From positions 558,001-622,000 of the forward strand of contig NZ_RQXX01000002.1 in the NCBI RefSeq assembly GCF_004011175.1: a DNA stretch of 64,000 nt, in the 5' to 3' direction. Made by a program: the position numbers and the translations under genes. Under the pieces are notes generated by a model. That model worked only from the letters and a program-made list of their open reading frames with translations, did no database searches and was not told the DNA's origin. This DNA is from Mesobaculum littorinae. Its GTDB lineage: Bacteria > Pseudomonadota > Alphaproteobacteria > Rhodobacterales > Rhodobacteraceae. Shown piece by piece: positions 4,646 to 56,636 of the stretch. Numbering within the stretch: the stretch's first letter is position 1; each line of letters begins with the position of its first letter.

Positions 4646-4745
4646 CCGGGGGCTTCGCGCCCCCGGACCCCCGCGGAGTATTTCACGAAGAAGAGAAACA
4701 AGGGGCTTCGGCTTCTCTTCTTCTGAAATACTCCCGCCGGAGGCG
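4646..4745. repeat. Palindromic intergenic repeat, AGTATTT/AAGAAG family
   Basis: Region 3' of tpa. A GC hairpin CCGGGGGC/GCCCCCGG (4646-4653, 4659-4666) is followed by two facing copies of one motif: CGGAGTATTTCACGAAGAAG from 4673, and its near-perfect inverse at 4713-4736. The two arms differ only by a one-base indel on each side and could form a stem of over 20 bp. A third copy lies at 43912-43944, also between genes. The remaining part of the 4371-4798 gap shows nothing recognisable. These elements may act as terminators or mRNA 3'-end stabilisers; that role is inference. Confidence 0.7.
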
Positions 4746-4798
4746 ACAGCCGCGCCCCGCGCGGCCCTTTTAAGCAAACGGCGTGGCGCGTCAGCGCC

Positions 4799-14270: not shown

Positions 14271-14303
14271 AAGGCCGCGCCCCCCGGGGGCGCGGCCTTT
14301 TTT
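14271..14303 (+). terminator. Intrinsic terminator of rpsD
   Basis: GC-rich stem AAGGCCGCGCCCC / GGGGGCGCGGCCTT followed directly by a run of six T (14298-14303), 22 bp after the stop codon. The best canonical terminator in the window. Confidence 0.94.
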
Positions 14304-14358
14304 CGTTGTGGCATGGGGTGCGCATGTTCAGCGGACGGATACCGACCGTCTTACGGAC

Positions 14359-14498
14359 GCGCTTGCCTGCGGCCCGTGGCTTCGCCCGTTCGCCCCCGGA
14401 AAACCGTCCACCGGACGGTTTTCCGGGGGCGCCTGCCTTCGGCCCGGGGCTCCGCCCGTTCGGCGCTGAAAACCGTCTACCGGACGGTTTTCCGGGCG
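14359..14498. repeat. Tandem 70-bp repeat carrying GAAAACCGTC palindromes
   Basis: Two tandem units of 70 bp (14359-14428 and 14429-14498), about 80% identical. Each ends in a long palindrome. In unit 1 the stem is 18 bp and perfect (14392-14409 with 14413-14430, loop ACC). In unit 2 the core GAAAACCGTCT/GGACGGTTTTC has the same ACC loop. The same core recurs after glyS (56274-56298). It lies between convergent rpsD and an EamA gene and could act as a bidirectional terminator, but has no T-tract. Confidence 0.85.
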
Positions 14499-14502
14499 CG
14501 CC

Positions 14503-15435
14503 TCACCCAAAGAAAAGGCGGTGGAGCGCGCGGGCCTGGCTGACCAACAGCCCGGCGATGATCAGAAGAAGCGCCGCGAAGAACCGCCACGGCAGCGCCT
14601 CGCCCAGGAACATGACGCCGAAGATCATCGCCCAGATCGGCACCTGGTAGCTGACGAGGGTCATGAAGACCGGCCCGGCCGACCGGATCGTCACCACGCG
14701 CAACAGCACCGCAAAGGCCGTGGGCAACAGCCCCAGCGCCACGATGGCGACCCCCGGAGCGGCGCCTGCCCAGTGCGGCACGCCCTCGATCGCCAGCATC
14801 GCGGGCACCAGCACCACCGCGCCCACGCACAGCGTGATCGCGGCCATCACGATGGGGTCGACCGGCGGGCAGCGGCGGGTCACGATCGATGCGGTCGCAT
14901 AGAAGACCGCCGCCGAGAAACACGCCACCTGCGCCATGACATGCCCCTCGGCCCCGGCCGAGATCAGCCCCGGCCCGATCAGCACGATGGGGCCGCTGAA
15001 CCCGATCAGCACCCCCAGGACCTGTCGCAGGCTAAGCGTGTCGTCGGTGAAGAAATGTGCCAGCGGCAGCACGAACAGCGGTACTGCCGCCAGCGAAAGC
15101 CCGGCAAAGGCCGAAGGCACGAACTGCTGACCCCATGACAGCAGCATGAAGGGAAGCGCGACCGACACCAGCCCGTTGACCACGAGGTACAGCACCGTGC
15201 GGGGGGCAGGCGCGGGCCACGGCCGCCGCATCGCGAACACCAGCGCAAGAAGGGCGACAGCCCCAAGGCTCGCCCGGGCCGCCGCCACGGTGATCGGGCC
15301 ATAGCCGTCCAGCGCGACGCGCATGACCGTGAAGGTCCCGCCCCAGATCACGCCTAGGACGATCACTGACACCCAGTTCAGGGCGGTGGGCTGGCCGGGG
15401 GCGCCCACGGCGCCGGGGGATGCGGTGCTGGTCAT
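14503..15435 (-). CDS. EamA-family (DMT) transporter
   Basis: 310-residue member of the drug/metabolite transporter superfamily with ten predicted membrane helices arranged as two EamA repeats (first begins near VIVLGVIWGGTFTVMRVAL, second near VACFSAAVFYATASIVTR). Substrate cannot be read from sequence; relatives export amino acids or metabolites. ATG 15435 (MTSTASPG) is chosen; another in-frame ATG at 15495 would add 20 residues, but it falls inside a perfect palindrome (15489-15507) that looks like an operator. Ribosome binding site is weak. The gene ends beside the 70-bp repeats. Confidence 0.82.
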   Translation of the reverse strand: MTSTASPGAVGAPGQPTALNWVSVIVLGVIWGGTFTVMRVALDGYGPITVAAARASLGAVALLALVFAMRRPWPAPAPRTVLYLVVNGLVSVALPFMLLSWGQQFVPSAFAGLSLAAVPLFVLPLAHFFTDDTLSLRQVLGVLIGFSGPIVLIGPGLISAGAEGHVMAQVACFSAAVFYATASIVTRRCPPVDPIVMAAITLCVGAVVLVPAMLAIEGVPHWAGAAPGVAIVALGLLPTAFAVLLRVVTIRSAGPVFMTLVSYQVPIWAMIFGVMFLGEALPWRFFAALLLIIAGLLVSQARALHRLFFG

Positions 15436-15488
15436 CCCATGGGGGATAGGGCGGCTGCCGTGGGTCGACAAGGGAGGGACCGGAAGAG

Positions 15489-15507
15489 AATGCATGCGTC
15501 ATGCATT
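15489..15507. promoter_or_regulatory. Palindromic operator candidate upstream of EamA gene
   Basis: AATGCATGCGTCATGCATT: perfect 8-bp arms with a 3-bp centre, AT-rich against a GC-rich background, 54 bp before the EamA start. Size and symmetry suit a dimeric regulator. No regulator gene is adjacent. Confidence 0.4.
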
Positions 15508-43898: not shown

Positions 43899-43944
43899 CC
43901 CGCCGGGGGACGCCTCCGGCGGGAGTATTTTTGAAGAGAAGAAG
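43899..43944. repeat. Palindromic intergenic repeat, AGTATTT/AAGAAG family
   Basis: Hairpin CCCGCCGGGGG / CCTCCGGCGGG (43899-43909, 43913-43923, one mismatch) followed by AGTATTTTTGAAGAGAAGAA. The right half matches the copy after tpa (4713-4745). On the plus strand the hairpin is followed by five T, terminator-like. Confidence 0.7.
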
Positions 43945-50210: not shown

Positions 50211-52397
50211 TCAGTCCCAGCAGCTGACCAGCACGGTCATGCCGCCGGCCTTGCGCCCCAGCTGATCGGGGTTGAGCGTGCTGCGATCCTCGGCCTCGGA
50301 CACCTGCACACCCTCGCGCCCCAGAAAGGCGGCGATTGTGTCGCTGTCGGCGGCGAAGGACACGCCGTCGGGCAGGACCCGACCGCCATCCTCGTTTCGC
50401 GGCAGAAGCATTCCCAGGACCGCGCCGGTGGCATCGAGCACCGGGCCGCCCGCGTCGCCGGGCTGGGTTCCGACTTCGAGCCGGCGCACGGTGTCCGCCC
50501 CGTCGAGCCCGCGCAGGTCCGCCAGCCGCCCGAAGGTCAGGCTGGGCGCGCCCAGCACCCCTTCGTAGGAAAACCCGGACACGGCGACTTCGCTCTGCAG
50601 GCGTGGCGTCGCGGTCTGAAGGCGGGCGTAATCGCTCGGGGACAGCGGCGATTGCGGCCGCAGCAGCGCCAGGCCGCTGGCGTCGTCCTGCGCCGCGATC
50701 TCGGCCTCGACGGCTTCGTCCAGCGTGATCCGCCCGCAAGAGCCCAGGATGTCCGAGGTGGTCAGCACCATGCCCGCGGCATCGACGTAGAAGCCCGAGC
50801 GCGACAGCTCGGGCCGGCGGATCTGCAGGCCGGCCAGTAGATCGACGCGCTGCGTCTCGTCCGGGGCGCCGACGCGGTCGGGCATCACCACGCCCGGGAT
50901 CGGCGCGAAGCTCTGGCGCATCTCGTCCAGCACCCGCGCGCGCCGCTCTTCGTCGCCGCGCGGCCAGATCAGCGTGAAGCCCTTGACCGACCCGTCGACC
51001 AGCCCGGCCTCGGTATGCGAGACGAAGTCGGCGTTCTGCCCCTCCAGCCGGAACACGGTGTCGTCGCGGTCGCGCGGGCCGTCCTGCGGCACGATCTCGA
51101 GCGTCTGCATGACGTCGTAGAGCCCTGCCAGCGTGTCGCCGTCGCCGTCCTGCGAAATCAGCAGGACGCGGTAGGCGGCGCCGTCCTCGATGGCATCGTA
51201 ATGGGCGAAGGGCGGCTCGTAGCGGGAAAACTCGACCAGGGCGGTCGGCATCCGCATCTCGATCCCGGCGGTATCGTCGCGCACGAGGTCGAGCCCGAGG
51301 CCTTCGAGGATGGCGTTGTAGTCCGCCATCAGCTCGTCGCGCTGGCGGGTCGTCAGGACGCCGGTGACGTCATATCCCTTCCGTGCCTGCCAGTCGCCCA
51401 TCGCGGCGCGGGTGCCGCGACCGAAGGCGCCGTCGATGGCGGCGTCGTAGACACCCGCCCACTGCATCGCGCGCTGCAGGGCGCGGCGTTCTTCGCCGCT
51501 CAGGCCCGCCTCGCTCTGCCGGGCTTCGGCGACGGTTTCATAGACCGGGGCGGGGCCTTCCTCTTCCACGCGGGCGGCGTAGGCCCGGGCCAGGGCGGCG
51601 CGCTGCGCAGTGGTCAAAACGCCTGTGGGGTCGGCGCCCACGTCGGTTTGCCAGTCCGACATCGCGGCGCGGGTCGACCGGCCGAAGGCGCCGTCGATCG
51701 GGCCGCGGTAGAAGCCCAGCCGCCGCAGCGCGCGCTGAAGCTCGCGCCGCGCCTCGCCGTCGAGCGCGCGTTCTGACTGGCGCGCCTCGGCCACGGTCTC
51801 GGTGTCGGCCGCCGTTTGGGACGACGTGTCGCTCGTTGTTCCGGTGGCGGTTCCGGTGGAAGCTTCAGTGGCGGGCTGGCCGGCTTCCGGCGCAGTGTCG
51901 CCGGTGCGCGCGCCAGCCGCGTCCTGGGCGGCGACGACGGCATCGGCCAGCGCATCCTCGGCGGCCGAGGGCGCATCGGCGGTTGCGTCCTCCGCGTCGC
52001 CCTCGGTGTCCGGCGCATCGGGGAGGGCCTGCGCAGTGTCGACGCCGGCGGGCTCTTCCCCCTCGGCGGGCCAGAAACGGGTGCCGAAGCTTTGGCCATC
52101 GGTGACGAAGCTGTCGCCCGGGATCAGCCCGCGGCGCCGCAGGTCGCTGCGCGTCGCGGCGGCGGCGTCCTCGGTCAGCGGGCCGACGGTGATCGCGTAC
52201 CACGCGCTGCTGCCCAGCCGGAATCCGGCGACATCCTCGATCTGGCCGGCGTAATCGCGCGCGGCCTCGACCGCCTCGGCCCGGGAGGGTTGCGCCTCGA
52301 TCTGCAGCCAGACGTCCTGTGCCGTCGCCGCACCGGCCACAAAACCCGCGGCGCCGACGGTGTAGGCCGCAAGAAGCAGCCGGATAACTCTACTCAT
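50211..52397 (-). CDS. Exported peptidoglycan-binding protein with inactive trypsin-like domain
   Basis: 728 residues. Signal peptide 1-26 (ATA-QD cleavage), a SPOR-like region (about 28-100), an acidic Ala/Asp-rich linker (about 115-200), and two peptidoglycan_binding_1 repeats (about 203-272 and 288-357) sharing ETVAEARQSE and IDGAFGRSTRAAM-type motifs. A middle domain (about 370-510) is unassigned. The C-terminal 190 residues resemble a trypsin/DegP fold: VDAAGMVLTTSDILGSCGRI, DDASGLALLRPQSPL and TQPGDAGGPVLDATGAVLG. At the His and Ser positions this protein has Ser-Asp and Ala (GDAGG for GNSGG), so it should not be proteolytic. Probably a periplasmic wall-binding scaffold. Similar proteins may be misnamed serine proteases. 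Confidence 0.82.
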   Translation of the reverse strand: MSRVIRLLLAAYTVGAAGFVAGAATAQDVWLQIEAQPSRAEAVEAARDYAGQIEDVAGFRLGSSAWYAITVGPLTEDAAAATRSDLRRRGLIPGDSFVTDGQSFGTRFWPAEGEEPAGVDTAQALPDAPDTEGDAEDATADAPSAAEDALADAVVAAQDAAGARTGDTAPEAGQPATEASTGTATGTTSDTSSQTAADTETVAEARQSERALDGEARRELQRALRRLGFYRGPIDGAFGRSTRAAMSDWQTDVGADPTGVLTTAQRAALARAYAARVEEEGPAPVYETVAEARQSEAGLSGEERRALQRAMQWAGVYDAAIDGAFGRGTRAAMGDWQARKGYDVTGVLTTRQRDELMADYNAILEGLGLDLVRDDTAGIEMRMPTALVEFSRYEPPFAHYDAIEDGAAYRVLLISQDGDGDTLAGLYDVMQTLEIVPQDGPRDRDDTVFRLEGQNADFVSHTEAGLVDGSVKGFTLIWPRGDEERRARVLDEMRQSFAPIPGVVMPDRVGAPDETQRVDLLAGLQIRRPELSRSGFYVDAAGMVLTTSDILGSCGRITLDEAVEAEIAAQDDASGLALLRPQSPLSPSDYARLQTATPRLQSEVAVSGFSYEGVLGAPSLTFGRLADLRGLDGADTVRRLEVGTQPGDAGGPVLDATGAVLGMLLPRNEDGGRVLPDGVSFAADSDTIAAFLGREGVQVSEAEDRSTLNPDQLGRKAGGMTVLVSCWD

Positions 52398-54097: not shown

Positions 54098-56263
54098 ATG
54101 CCCGACCTTTTGATCGAACTCTTCAGCGAAGAAATCCCGGCGCGCATGCAGGGGCGTGCGGCCGACGACCTGAAACGCCGCGTCACAGACGGGCTGGTCG
54201 AGGCGGGGCTGACCTACGCCTCGGCGGGTGCCTTTTCGACCCCGCGGCGGCTGGTGCTGTCGGTCGAGGGGCTGACCGCCGAAAGCCCCGCCCAGACCGA
54301 GGAACGCAAGGGCCCCCGCGTCGATGCCCCCGACAAGGCGATCGAGGGCTTCCTGCGCTCCACCGGGCTTGCGCGCCAGGATCTGGAAACGCGGTCCGAG
54401 AAGAAGGGCGAGGTCTATTTCGCCGTGATCCGCAGGCCCGGGCGTCCTGCGCGCGACATCGTGGCCGAGGTTCTGGAAACCGTCGTGCGCGGCTTTCCCT
54501 GGCCCAAGTCGATGCGCTGGGGCGCTGGCGAAATGCGCTGGGTGCGGCCGTTGCACCGGATCCTGTGCCTGCTGTCGGACGAGGCCGGCGCTGAAATCGT
54601 GCCGCTGGAAATCGACGGGATCCGGGCGTGCGATGTGACCGAGGGCCACCGCTTCCTGAGCCCCGGCGAATTCTCGGTCTCGGGATTCGAGGATTATGCC
54701 GCCAAGCTGCGGCGCGCCTATGTCGTTCTGTCGCCCGCCGAACGGGCCGAGGCGATCCGCGCCGACGCCGATACGCTGGCCTTCGCCGCGGGGCGCGAGG
54801 TGGTCGAGGATCGCGCGCTGCTGGCCGAGGTCGCGGGACTTGTCGAATGGCCGGTGGTGCTGATGGGGGCGATCGGGAAAGACTACCTCGACCTGCCGCC
54901 AGAGGTGCTTCAGACCTCGATGCGCGAACATCAGAAGTTCTTCAGCGTCCGCTCCCCCGGGGCCGCGGGGGACGATGTTCAGATCACCCATTTCATCACC
55001 GTGGCCAACCGCGAGACCGCGGATGACGGCGCCACTATCCTTGCCGGCAACGGCCGCGTGCTGGCCGCGCGGCTGGCCGATGCCAAGTTCTTTTGGGACA
55101 ACGACCTGCGGGTCGCCCGCGACGGCATGGCGCCCTGGCTCGAGGCGCTGTCGCAGGTGACCTTCCACGCCCGGCTGGGCAGCGTCGCCGACCGCAGTGC
55201 GCGGATCGCGCGGCTGGCGCGGCGGCTGGCCCCCGTGACCGGCGCCGACCCCGACACCGCGGCCGAGGCCGCGCGGCTGGCCAAGGCCGACCTGACCTCG
55301 GAGATGGTCTACGAGTTCCCCGAGCTTCAGGGCGTGATGGGGCGCTATTATGCGCAGGCCGCGAGGTTCGGCCCCGAAATCGCGGATGCGGTGCGCGACC
55401 ATTACAAGCCCCTCGGCCCCTCGGACGAGGTGCCGGAAGGCCCGGTGACGCAGGCCGTGGCGCTGGCCGACAAGATCGAGATGCTGCGCGCCTTCTGGGC
55501 GATCGACGAAAAGCCCACCGGCTCGAAGGATCCCTTTGCCCTGCGGCGCGCGGCGCTGGGCGTGATCCGGCTGTGCCTGGCCCACGGGCTGCGCCTGCCG
55601 CTTCTCGAAGTTCTGGGCCGCAATCCCGACGAGGCGTCCGACCTGGCGCAGACCTCGGACCGGCTGCTGACCGAAGAGCTCGCCTCGGGCGGGGCCGGGC
55701 TACCGGGCGATCCCGCGCGACCCTCGCCCGAGATCGCGGCGGATCTTCTGGGCTTCTTCCATGACCGTCTCAAGGTGCACCTGCGCGACGCGGGCCTGCG
55801 GCATGACGTGATCGACGCCTGCCTCGCGATGCCGGGCAGCGACGACCTCGTGGGACTCGTCCGCCGGGCCGAGGCTCTGGGCGCGGTGCTGGGCACCGAC
55901 GAGGGCGAGAACCTGCTGCAGGGGTTCCGCCGTGCCAACAACATCCTCGCCCAGGCAGAAGAGAAAGACGGGGTCGAATACTCCTTCGGTCCCGACGAGA
56001 AGTTTGCCGAGGCGGACGAGGAAAAGGCACTTTTCGCCGCGCTCGACCGGGCCGAGGCGATTATCGCCCCTGCGCTTTCCTCCGAGGATTTTGCCACGGC
56101 GATGGCGGCGATGGCGGATCTGCGCGCCCCGATCGATGCGTTCTTCGAGGCGGTCCAGATCAACACCGACAACCAGATCATCCGCCGCAATCGCCTGAAC
56201 CTTCTGGGCCGCATCCGGCAGGTCTGCGGCGGTGTCGCCGACCTCACCCGCATCGAGGGGTGA
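54098..56263 (+). CDS. glyS: Glycyl-tRNA synthetase beta subunit
   Basis: 721-residue tRNA-binding subunit of the tetrameric glycyl-tRNA synthetase. LLIELFSEEIPARMQGRAAD at the N-terminus, TPRRLVLSVEGL, MRWGAGEMRWVRPLHRILCL, TSMREHQKFFSV, FFWDNDLRVARDGMAPWLEA and ELQGVMGRYYA are typical; the C-terminal anticodon-binding domain with NTDNQIIRRNRLNLLGRI is complete. Length is normal. ATG 54098 follows DUF6446 by two bases. The stop codon lies at the edge of a palindromic repeat (56262-56306) that may end the operon transcript. Confidence 0.97.
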   Translation: MPDLLIELFSEEIPARMQGRAADDLKRRVTDGLVEAGLTYASAGAFSTPRRLVLSVEGLTAESPAQTEERKGPRVDAPDKAIEGFLRSTGLARQDLETRSEKKGEVYFAVIRRPGRPARDIVAEVLETVVRGFPWPKSMRWGAGEMRWVRPLHRILCLLSDEAGAEIVPLEIDGIRACDVTEGHRFLSPGEFSVSGFEDYAAKLRRAYVVLSPAERAEAIRADADTLAFAAGREVVEDRALLAEVAGLVEWPVVLMGAIGKDYLDLPPEVLQTSMREHQKFFSVRSPGAAGDDVQITHFITVANRETADDGATILAGNGRVLAARLADAKFFWDNDLRVARDGMAPWLEALSQVTFHARLGSVADRSARIARLARRLAPVTGADPDTAAEAARLAKADLTSEMVYEFPELQGVMGRYYAQAARFGPEIADAVRDHYKPLGPSDEVPEGPVTQAVALADKIEMLRAFWAIDEKPTGSKDPFALRRAALGVIRLCLAHGLRLPLLEVLGRNPDEASDLAQTSDRLLTEELASGGAGLPGDPARPSPEIAADLLGFFHDRLKVHLRDAGLRHDVIDACLAMPGSDDLVGLVRRAEALGAVLGTDEGENLLQGFRRANNILAQAEEKDGVEYSFGPDEKFAEADEEKALFAALDRAEAIIAPALSSEDFATAMAAMADLRAPIDAFFEAVQINTDNQIIRRNRLNLLGRIRQVCGGVADLTRIEG

Positions 56264-56306
56264 TCCGCGCCCGGGAAACCGTCCAGTGGACGGTTTCCAG
56301 CGGATC
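56262..56306. repeat. GAAACCGTCC palindrome at end of glyS
   Basis: Core stem GGAAACCGTCC / GGACGGTTTCC (56274-56284, 56288-56298, loop AGT), enclosed by GATCCGC / GCGGATC (56262-56268, 56300-56306). The core is the same as in the repeats at 14392-14430 and 14468-14492. The remainder of the gap to 56636 holds an AT-richer patch around 56485-56515 but no clear promoter or gene. Confidence 0.8.
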
Positions 56307-56636
56307 ACGGGCGCGAGCCCCGGGTTTTGCGAGGGCAATGGCTCGGTCGGCCCGTGGCGGGGGGCGGCGGTGGGCGCCCCGATCCGAGCGGAGCCTCAGC
56401 CGCGTGAGGCCTGTCGGGGTCCTTTGGAACCGGTCATGTCGCTCCTCGGTGCAGCCATCTGGGACGGGCCGCTACGGGCCTCTGTAGGATTTAATTTCTG
56501 CAATCTCTGCATGGCCCGTGCCGGGCCACCAATGGTGCTCGGGGGCGTCGCACCGATGCCGACCGTGGGGCAGGGCGGCTGACAATTTGCCCCCGACGCC
56601 AGCCGCGCTATGGTGGGGTTGAGGGGGAATGCTGCG

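Follow-up and report, generated by a model that had tools for sequence, protein, structure and literature searches.

GTAG REPs, which occur with RAYT transposases, are described in the main text of Di Nocera 2013 (PMC3733652) as short palindromes with complementary changes in their stems that lie mostly downstream of coding regions and form clusters, and the same text reports that their tetranucleotide tag often supplies the stop codon (TAG) of the flanking gene. For CGTC REPs, it describes a CGTC tag adjoining a stem of 8-9 bp, a loop of 4-5 nt, a CCA tail and an arrangement mainly as head-head dimers, and section 16 of PMC3733652 states that some TIR repeats of TIRYT (Y1) transposases have the common motif GGGGWSAS. 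The names Rhodobacter, Paracoccus, Ruegeria, Roseobacter, Silicibacter, Dinoroseobacter, sphaeroides and Rhodobacterales are absent from this main text, its species being listed in figures. According to the abstract of PMC2817692, REPs are present in more than 100 copies per genome, and passages of PMC12306157 report that ribosomes stall at REPs lying no more than 15 nt from a stop codon.

The window analysed here is a stretch of 64,000 nucleotides from Mesobaculum littorinae, in which three palindromes of a common core had been predicted at two sites from the letters alone. The palindromes belong to a family of elements of ~66 bp, and we consider this element, at a probability of roughly 70%, to be non-coding, mobile and REP-like, with a GTGA tag and directional insertion at G-TGA.

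Palindromes, element units and neighbouring genes in the window

The three palindromes are real and lie at 14391-14431 (palindrome 1), 14468-14492 (palindrome 2) and 56274-56298 (palindrome 3). They had been called perfect, which holds for the first, although its stem around the loop ACC measures 19 bp and not 18, while the second has one non-complementary pair (T/G) adjoining the loop; the third has an 11-bp stem with the loop AGT. Palindromes 1 and 2 are 94% alike over 36 nt and form the tandem repeat that had been predicted, with a spacing of 69 bp instead of 70. Each palindrome represents just the inner stem of the ~66-bp element, which also comprises outer arms and a second hairpin. Unit 1 (~66 bp; 14444-14509, minus strand) reads GGGTGAGGCGCGCCCGGAAAACC... 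on its strand and is matched by the covariance model over 14432-14511 with 91.5 bits, a score from a model built partly from unit 1 itself. Head-to-tail with it, at the same 69-bp spacing, lies unit 2 (14362-14442, minus strand; C12:572362-572442 in contig coordinates), which holds palindrome 1, scores 68.8 bits and is without the GGGGTGA tag. A possible degenerate third unit (GCGCGTCCGTAAGACGGTCGGTATCCGTC; 14325-14362, minus strand) is an uncertain reading by eye, and the covariance model reported no match there. The glyS copy (56257-56322, plus strand; GGGGTGATCCGC...) is matched over 56255-56335 with 87.8 bits, the copy itself being among the model's sequences. When up to two mismatches are allowed, CCGTCCNNNGGACGG matches the window no more often than expected (12 matches versus 14.3).

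Both full copies in the window, unit 1 and the glyS copy, end a gene. Units 1 and 2 are flanked by rpsD and, convergent to it, an EamA-family transporter gene (14503-15495, minus strand; PF00892, 5e-33); the transporter gene ends on unit 1, whose TGA is its stop codon (14503-14505, minus strand). Likewise, glyS, encoding the glycyl-tRNA synthetase beta subunit (54098-56263, plus strand; its ortholog L070 matches PF02092), ends ...TRIEG* on the element, the TGA at 56261-56263 (plus strand) serving as stop codon. The palindromes had been described as lying 3' of genes, and the position at gene ends is borne out, but the TGA of the element is itself the stop codon and does not merely lie 3' of it.

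Boundaries and fold of the element

In 106 copies, the conserved stretch spans positions -28 to +37 relative to the loop (37 counted from the first loop base) with sharp limits, and the flanks are near random; this set is what remains of 134 hits after removal of copies with an inner stem below 7 bp or identical 120-bp surroundings. The consensus reads GGGGTGAGSSSC-GYCYNGG-AAANNGTCC-NNN-GGACNNTTT-CA-GSSSCGAAC-GGGCGGAGCCC-CGG. The fold of one strand consists of an outer stem, formed by GTGAGSSSC and GSSSCGAAC, a bulge of 6 nt, an inner stem of 10 bp that closes a 3-nt loop, and a second hairpin of 4 bp. In a MAFFT alignment of 77 copies, 86.4% of the cells are paired and changes on both sides are found at 17 of the 22 pairs. 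Double changes amount to 217 cells, as compared to 64.7 (sd 5.5) in shuffles, none of 500 shuffles reaching this number, and to at most 49 in slid controls. The 77 rows were taken from 97 references, include only the glyS copy among those of the window, were found with a model containing the fold and were required to have at least 9 inner pairs, which means that pairing of the inner stem partly reflects the selection of rows. More independent evidence comes from the outer arms, which were not used in picking the rows and have 363 of 385 cells paired and 106 double changes in these copies; the second hairpin is paired in 283 of 308 cells.

Within the outer stem, GA faces GA at two positions in 66/77 copies, probably as tandem G-A pairs, with Watson-Crick partners there in three rows, and the closing G-C is present in 74/77. 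A crossing pairing of GCCCG with CGGGC, considered for ten copies of the own genome, pairs 62.5% of cells versus 85% for the nested second hairpin, which was retained. An asymmetric fold with paired changes suggests that one strand acts in folded form, as RNA, as DNA during transposition, or as both. Searches of 18 loci against Rfam 15 gave no match above the gathering cut-off, the hits otherwise being sub-threshold, and the lack of an Rfam match rules out a known structured RNA family, HEARO included.

Copies in the genome and spread among relatives

A genome-wide search for the core had been proposed, and AAACCGTCYNNNGGACGGTTT has six forward and five reverse matches in the 3.97-Mb genome, while the reversed, uncomplemented control has none on either strand. 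The pattern AANNGTCCNNNGGACNNTT gives 13 forward and 13 reverse matches (control 0 + 0), among which stem positions change in pairs, and a shorter pattern with two mismatches allowed gives 18 + 17 (control 0 + 3). A covariance model built from ten own-genome copies has 12 matches in this genome, corresponding to at least 11 distinct places, since one match is the reverse reading of unit 2. Both clusters examined in the own genome, that of the window and that at C17:192068/192137, are head-to-tail, and tandem units of 61-69 bp are found in several genomes.

In a set of 61 genomes (the own and 60 relatives), the pattern AANNGTCCNNNGGACNNTT is present in 18, of which 17 belong to the same family, with changes that are mostly paired; judging from the named glyS relatives, this family is most likely Rhodobacteraceae. 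With the covariance model at E 0.01, at least 102 of 198 Rhodobacteraceae genomes match the element, and across the class at least 8 of 289 genomes do, three of them members of the family and five (of at most 285) from outside it; these counts are lower bounds, as strict filters were used and at most 23 (family) or 16 (class) candidates were scored per genome. The highest counts per genome are at least 62 matches in G221 and at least 35 in G137, while the window's genus is unevenly populated, with 12 model matches here versus 0 and 2 in two congeneric species. Thus, copies are neither restricted to the window sites nor lacking conservation in relatives, the outcome that the original prediction had named as speaking against it.

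Of the five matching genomes outside the family, four (L285 in G339, L287 in G296, L288 in G043 and L289 in G437) look like true relatives when inspected by eye. They have in common GGTGAG, GTCCGGTGGAC and a paired arm ending AAC, and may represent subfamilies of a wider alphaproteobacterial group. In two genera, a second palindromic block, GGCGCTGCCCGGCG...CGCCGGGCGG, follows the element (L091-L093, L054 in G221 and L057 in G179), a mosaic arrangement resembling BIMEs. Several contigs of G221 start at the element.

Other repeats are present in the window. At 4675-4752 and 43904-43944, GGAGTATTT is followed by GAAGA-rich stretches, two of the copies forming an inverted pair adjoining CCTCCGGCGGGAG, and CCCGGAGTATTTGG strings resembling GGAGTATTT lie 3' of glyS in L156 and L188. 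Two 111-nt repeats, 76% alike and 261 bp apart, are found at 51388-51759.

Overlap with stop codons

A coding-like frame runs up to the tag in 38 of 86 classed copies, the tag TGA being in frame in 32 and out of frame in six, while in the remaining 48 no such frame reaches the tag. The classed set excludes stems below 7 bp, duplicates, 20 rows without the tag and one copy too near an end. Four of the six out-of-frame copies (L061, L075, L225 and L226) lie within IS3 orfA. Compared to an expectation of one third, the excess of in-frame tags has p = 1.4e-13 without the four IS3 copies and 1.4e-10 with them, values that are optimistic if any copies were inherited, because some of the 32 share a gene across genomes. 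The codon preceding the TGA is GGG in 27/32, GAG in 4/32 and GTG in 1/32, and TAA and TAG each replace the TGA in one gene-ending copy.

A separate count of 103 copies finds a stop exactly on the tag in 27, one base off in four and inside the element in two. In the same count, 22 other same-strand stops are scattered upstream versus 20 convergent ones, and none of the 20 convergent stops falls on the far end of the element. The genes ended by the element are mostly unrelated: among ten scanned, three encode EamA and two Trypsin_2 proteins, the other scanned gene ends belonging to TrkH, molybdopterin-binding, response regulator, AMP-binding and glycyl-tRNA synthetase proteins. In the deposited annotation of one plasmid, the algA CDS terminates at the TGA of the element.

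Occupied and empty sites

For glyS, algA and a J-domain gene, relatives without the element end the gene at the equivalent codon. For glyS, this is seen in the two congeneric species, in G003 and in 24 of 25 named relatives examined (of 80). The element is carried by glyS in four genomes, namely the own, G154 of another genus, a Litoreibacter MAG and bacterium F11138, and differences in the arms of these four copies suggest that they are separate arrivals. Among named glyS genes, two of four ending GGGTGA carry the element versus 0/67 with other ends (71 ends read); the association has a Fisher value of 0.0025, computed with 2/4 versus 0/66. The glyS end could be located in 70 of the 80 loci; L172 was read by hand, and L156 gave a hit to a different palindrome. 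One of the glyS records, L174, is titled Nocardioides marinus DP1N28-1 although its glyS is 66% identical to that of the window, and it is probably mislabelled or a mixed assembly.

With the element, the J-domain gene here closes on NFTG*; its counterpart in a congeneric species, which has no element there, reads NFQG*, and among other relatives the ends vary by about one residue. For algA, the end is AKG* both with the element and in the single relative compared. Recurrent use of a gene is seen for an EamA gene and a Trypsin_2 gene, each in two genera. The empty glyS and algA sites read GGCTGA and not GGGTGA, and the G before TGA may thus be either a target requirement or brought in by the element, both being possible.

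Presence and absence among relatives is also found in IS3, in IS5 and in a Leisingera intergenic region, with a net difference of 52-58 bp. By our own reading of these diverged pairs, 5-8 bases of the empty sites are lost in the occupied form, which a simple insertion does not explain, and the pairs are too diverged to decide the matter. Insertion of the IS200/IS605 type should not cause loss of target bases. MITEs carry the terminal inverted repeats of a resident IS and are flanked by a target-site duplication. No such duplication is visible between occupied and empty sites, the diverged pairs blurring the ends of the insertion, and no active transposition was seen among the sites compared.

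The kinship of copies points in the same direction as these sites. The nearest relative of a copy lies in the same genome in 28 of 54 cases, as compared to 2.5 in shuffles with a maximum of 9.5; six of the 77 copies were omitted as IS3-borne, IS3 peptides being found in five of them and not in L212. Taken together, occupied and empty sites and same-genome neighbours favour gain and local amplification over inherited orthologous hairpins.

Plasmids, phages and insertion sequences

Eleven plasmid records match one copy, four of which were opened, and the Rhodobacter capsulatus plasmid pRCB133 carries a copy of the element. Among phage records, one 86-base query gave no match. In IMG/VR, where assignments may include host DNA, the strict pattern has no match and a laxer pattern finds 33 stretches (L312-L344), and phages are therefore possible carriers. 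The stop rule is not seen in these 33 stretches, where in-frame and out-of-frame tags number 16 each and one tag is unclassed; they amount to few independent events because they fall mostly into two recurring sets, in which the element is either translated at the 3' end of a gene or follows an unassigned gene ending LLMG or LIMG. In ten stretches opened, a coding frame runs through the element in six and stops at its TGA in four. Five of the six read-through frames have the common C-terminus FSRERAEP plus two residues, and the two of this type that were scanned match a Cas4-domain exonuclease (phrog_1990), while two scanned genes stopping at the TGA have no family match.

Diverged IS3 copies have the element, in recognisable or degenerate form, just before the orfA stop (L061, L099, L100 in G214, L074, L075, L023, L269 and L270), and in L061 and L100 it is read in frame and forms the C-terminus of orfA where orfA meets orfB. 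IS3 elements use frameshifting at this junction. In the own genome, inner hairpins without the outer arms and GAAC are recognised by eye at L025 (C1:338991), L026 (C1:356533) and L033 (C19:43768), inside IS3 orfB remnants at the segment ENGYCES of intact copies, and a further inner hairpin without outer arms, also read by eye, lies within an orfA-like stretch at L030 (C17:78735).

The search for a mobilising enzyme

A link to RAYT-like transposases had been suggested and finds no support. The own genome has no Y1_Tnp gene, and such genes are present in 18 of 198 family genomes; the element occurs in 12 of the 18 genomes with Y1 versus 90 of the 180 others (p = 0.22, no significant association), a tally that takes both 198-genome samples as the same genomes. 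No element was found near the 10 Y1 loci searched. RAYT as the mover was consequently set aside.

How the element may have spread and what it may do

The family of copies with its common fold and sharp ends, the multi-copy and family-wide spread, the occupied and empty sites, the similarity of copies within a genome, the frequent overlap of tag and stop and the lack of terminator-like sites at the elements support the mobile half of the original prediction of a mobile or protein-bound element. We propose that the element inserts in one orientation at (G)G-G-TGA, and that insertions on stop codons would survive because they leave the protein unchanged, while most others inside genes would be purged. 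By analogy and with less confidence, the folded single strand could serve as substrate for a trans-acting transposase that works like the IS200/IS605 and RAYT enzymes, and a hairpin that begins at the stop codon could act on the host mRNA by blocking decay or slowing termination. Such an effect on mRNA would be plausible because REPs near stop codons have been reported to stall ribosomes. A more specific form of the proposal, which we hold only tentatively, is that the G-TGA stop is itself the target, so that gene ends could be colonised without damage to the protein, by an element that acts as a folded strand, is moved by a non-RAYT enzyme, provides mRNA hairpins open to selection and is carried between species by phages and insertion sequences.

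Four other explanations can be weighed against the insertion of a mobile element. A vertically inherited 3'-UTR hairpin, starting at stops and selected as a stabiliser of mRNA or as a regulator coupled to termination, would account for the strong compensatory change and for the exact stop overlap in unrelated genes, and the ribosome stalling reported for REPs close to a stop (within 15 nt; passages of PMC12306157) also speaks in its favour; yet the distribution is patchy, with 12, 0 and 2 model matches in one genus and empty sites in most relatives examined, the nearest relatives often share a genome, and off the tag there is no clear orientation bias (22 same-strand upstream stops versus 20 convergent), which makes this explanation unlikely. 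Similarity within genomes, as well as tandem units of 61-69 bp in several of them, could also have arisen by gene conversion or by recombination among existing copies, new sites being born slowly and without transposition. However, new sites in unrelated genes need a placing step, and conversion alone cannot explain arrival at existing stops, so that we regard this account as quite unlikely.

It could also be speculated that the element was originally a piece of an IS3-type element and has spread mainly by hitch-hiking in insertion sequences, since it is found at the orfA end of IS3 copies from several genomes, three of equal score in G214 for example, and IS5-type transposase genes carry it on two plasmids (the R. 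capsulatus right flank being matched by eye). Against this stand the stop-codon copies in ordinary genes and the existence of IS3 copies without the element (L267 and L268). Moreover, in the entire set the conserved stretch is sharply delimited to ~66 bp, and because conservation is confined to this length, insertion sequences do not generally surround the element; hitch-hiking as the main route is thus very unlikely. Strong hairpins 3' of genes would finally be expected of ordinary intrinsic terminators, which the original prediction had already doubted, and this identity can practically be ruled out: no terminator-like match (a GC-rich hairpin with a T run) is found at the elements, the terminator of rpsD is a separate, ordinary one (14271-14303, plus strand; a 13-bp stem at 14271-14299, then TTTTC), and sequence and structure are both conserved across genera.

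With insertion of a mobile element at G-TGA as the preferred reading, the Rhodobacteraceae, including genetic workhorses such as Rhodobacter capsulatus, gain a REP-like family of defined make-up, the insertion of which can be put as a simple hypothesis. If the target coincides with a stop, as this hypothesis has it, it becomes testable whether REP-like repeats lie near stops by their site of insertion or by function there. The presence of copies in a genome without a Y1/RAYT gene points to another mobilising enzyme or to one that has been lost.

Comparison with known systems

The literature searched, with subscription journals mostly outside it, holds no description of the element family, and one motif string led to a single unrelated PCR paper. 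HEARO and IscB-type relatives of IS605 insert directly after ATGA or GTGA, a rule that a literature search did not confirm; unlike HEARO, the element is 66 bp long, contains no gene and has no Rfam match. CerM-type repeats of Caulobacter contain GANTC methylation sites, whereas GANTC occurs in 0/77 copies of the element. The 5' end of the element, GGGGTGAG, fits the GGGGWSAS motif of TIR repeats, although this motif is short and no Y1 gene adjoins elements at the 10 loci searched.

Resemblance to CGTC REPs lies in the mainly alphaproteobacterial distribution, the lack of a known dedicated transposase, the A/T pairs that begin the stem and a short CA-like tail. In contrast to CGTC REPs, the loop has 3 nt, the units are arranged head-to-tail, and CGTC, found in 43/77 copies, lies 4 nt off the inner stem, inside the outer arms. 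With GTAG REPs, the element shares a palindrome with compensatory changes, the position at gene ends, an end tag supplying the stop, and clusters. It differs from them in its GTGA(G) tag, with GTGA in 66/77 copies and GTAG in 1/77, in its outer arms, second hairpin and head-to-tail tandems, and in the absence of a Y1/RAYT gene from the genome. Its numbers are also lower than those of REPs with more than 100 copies, with at least 11 distinct copies in the own genome and at least 62 matches in the genome that has most. By its defining features, the element is therefore neither a GTAG nor a CGTC REP, and it appears to work like a REP.
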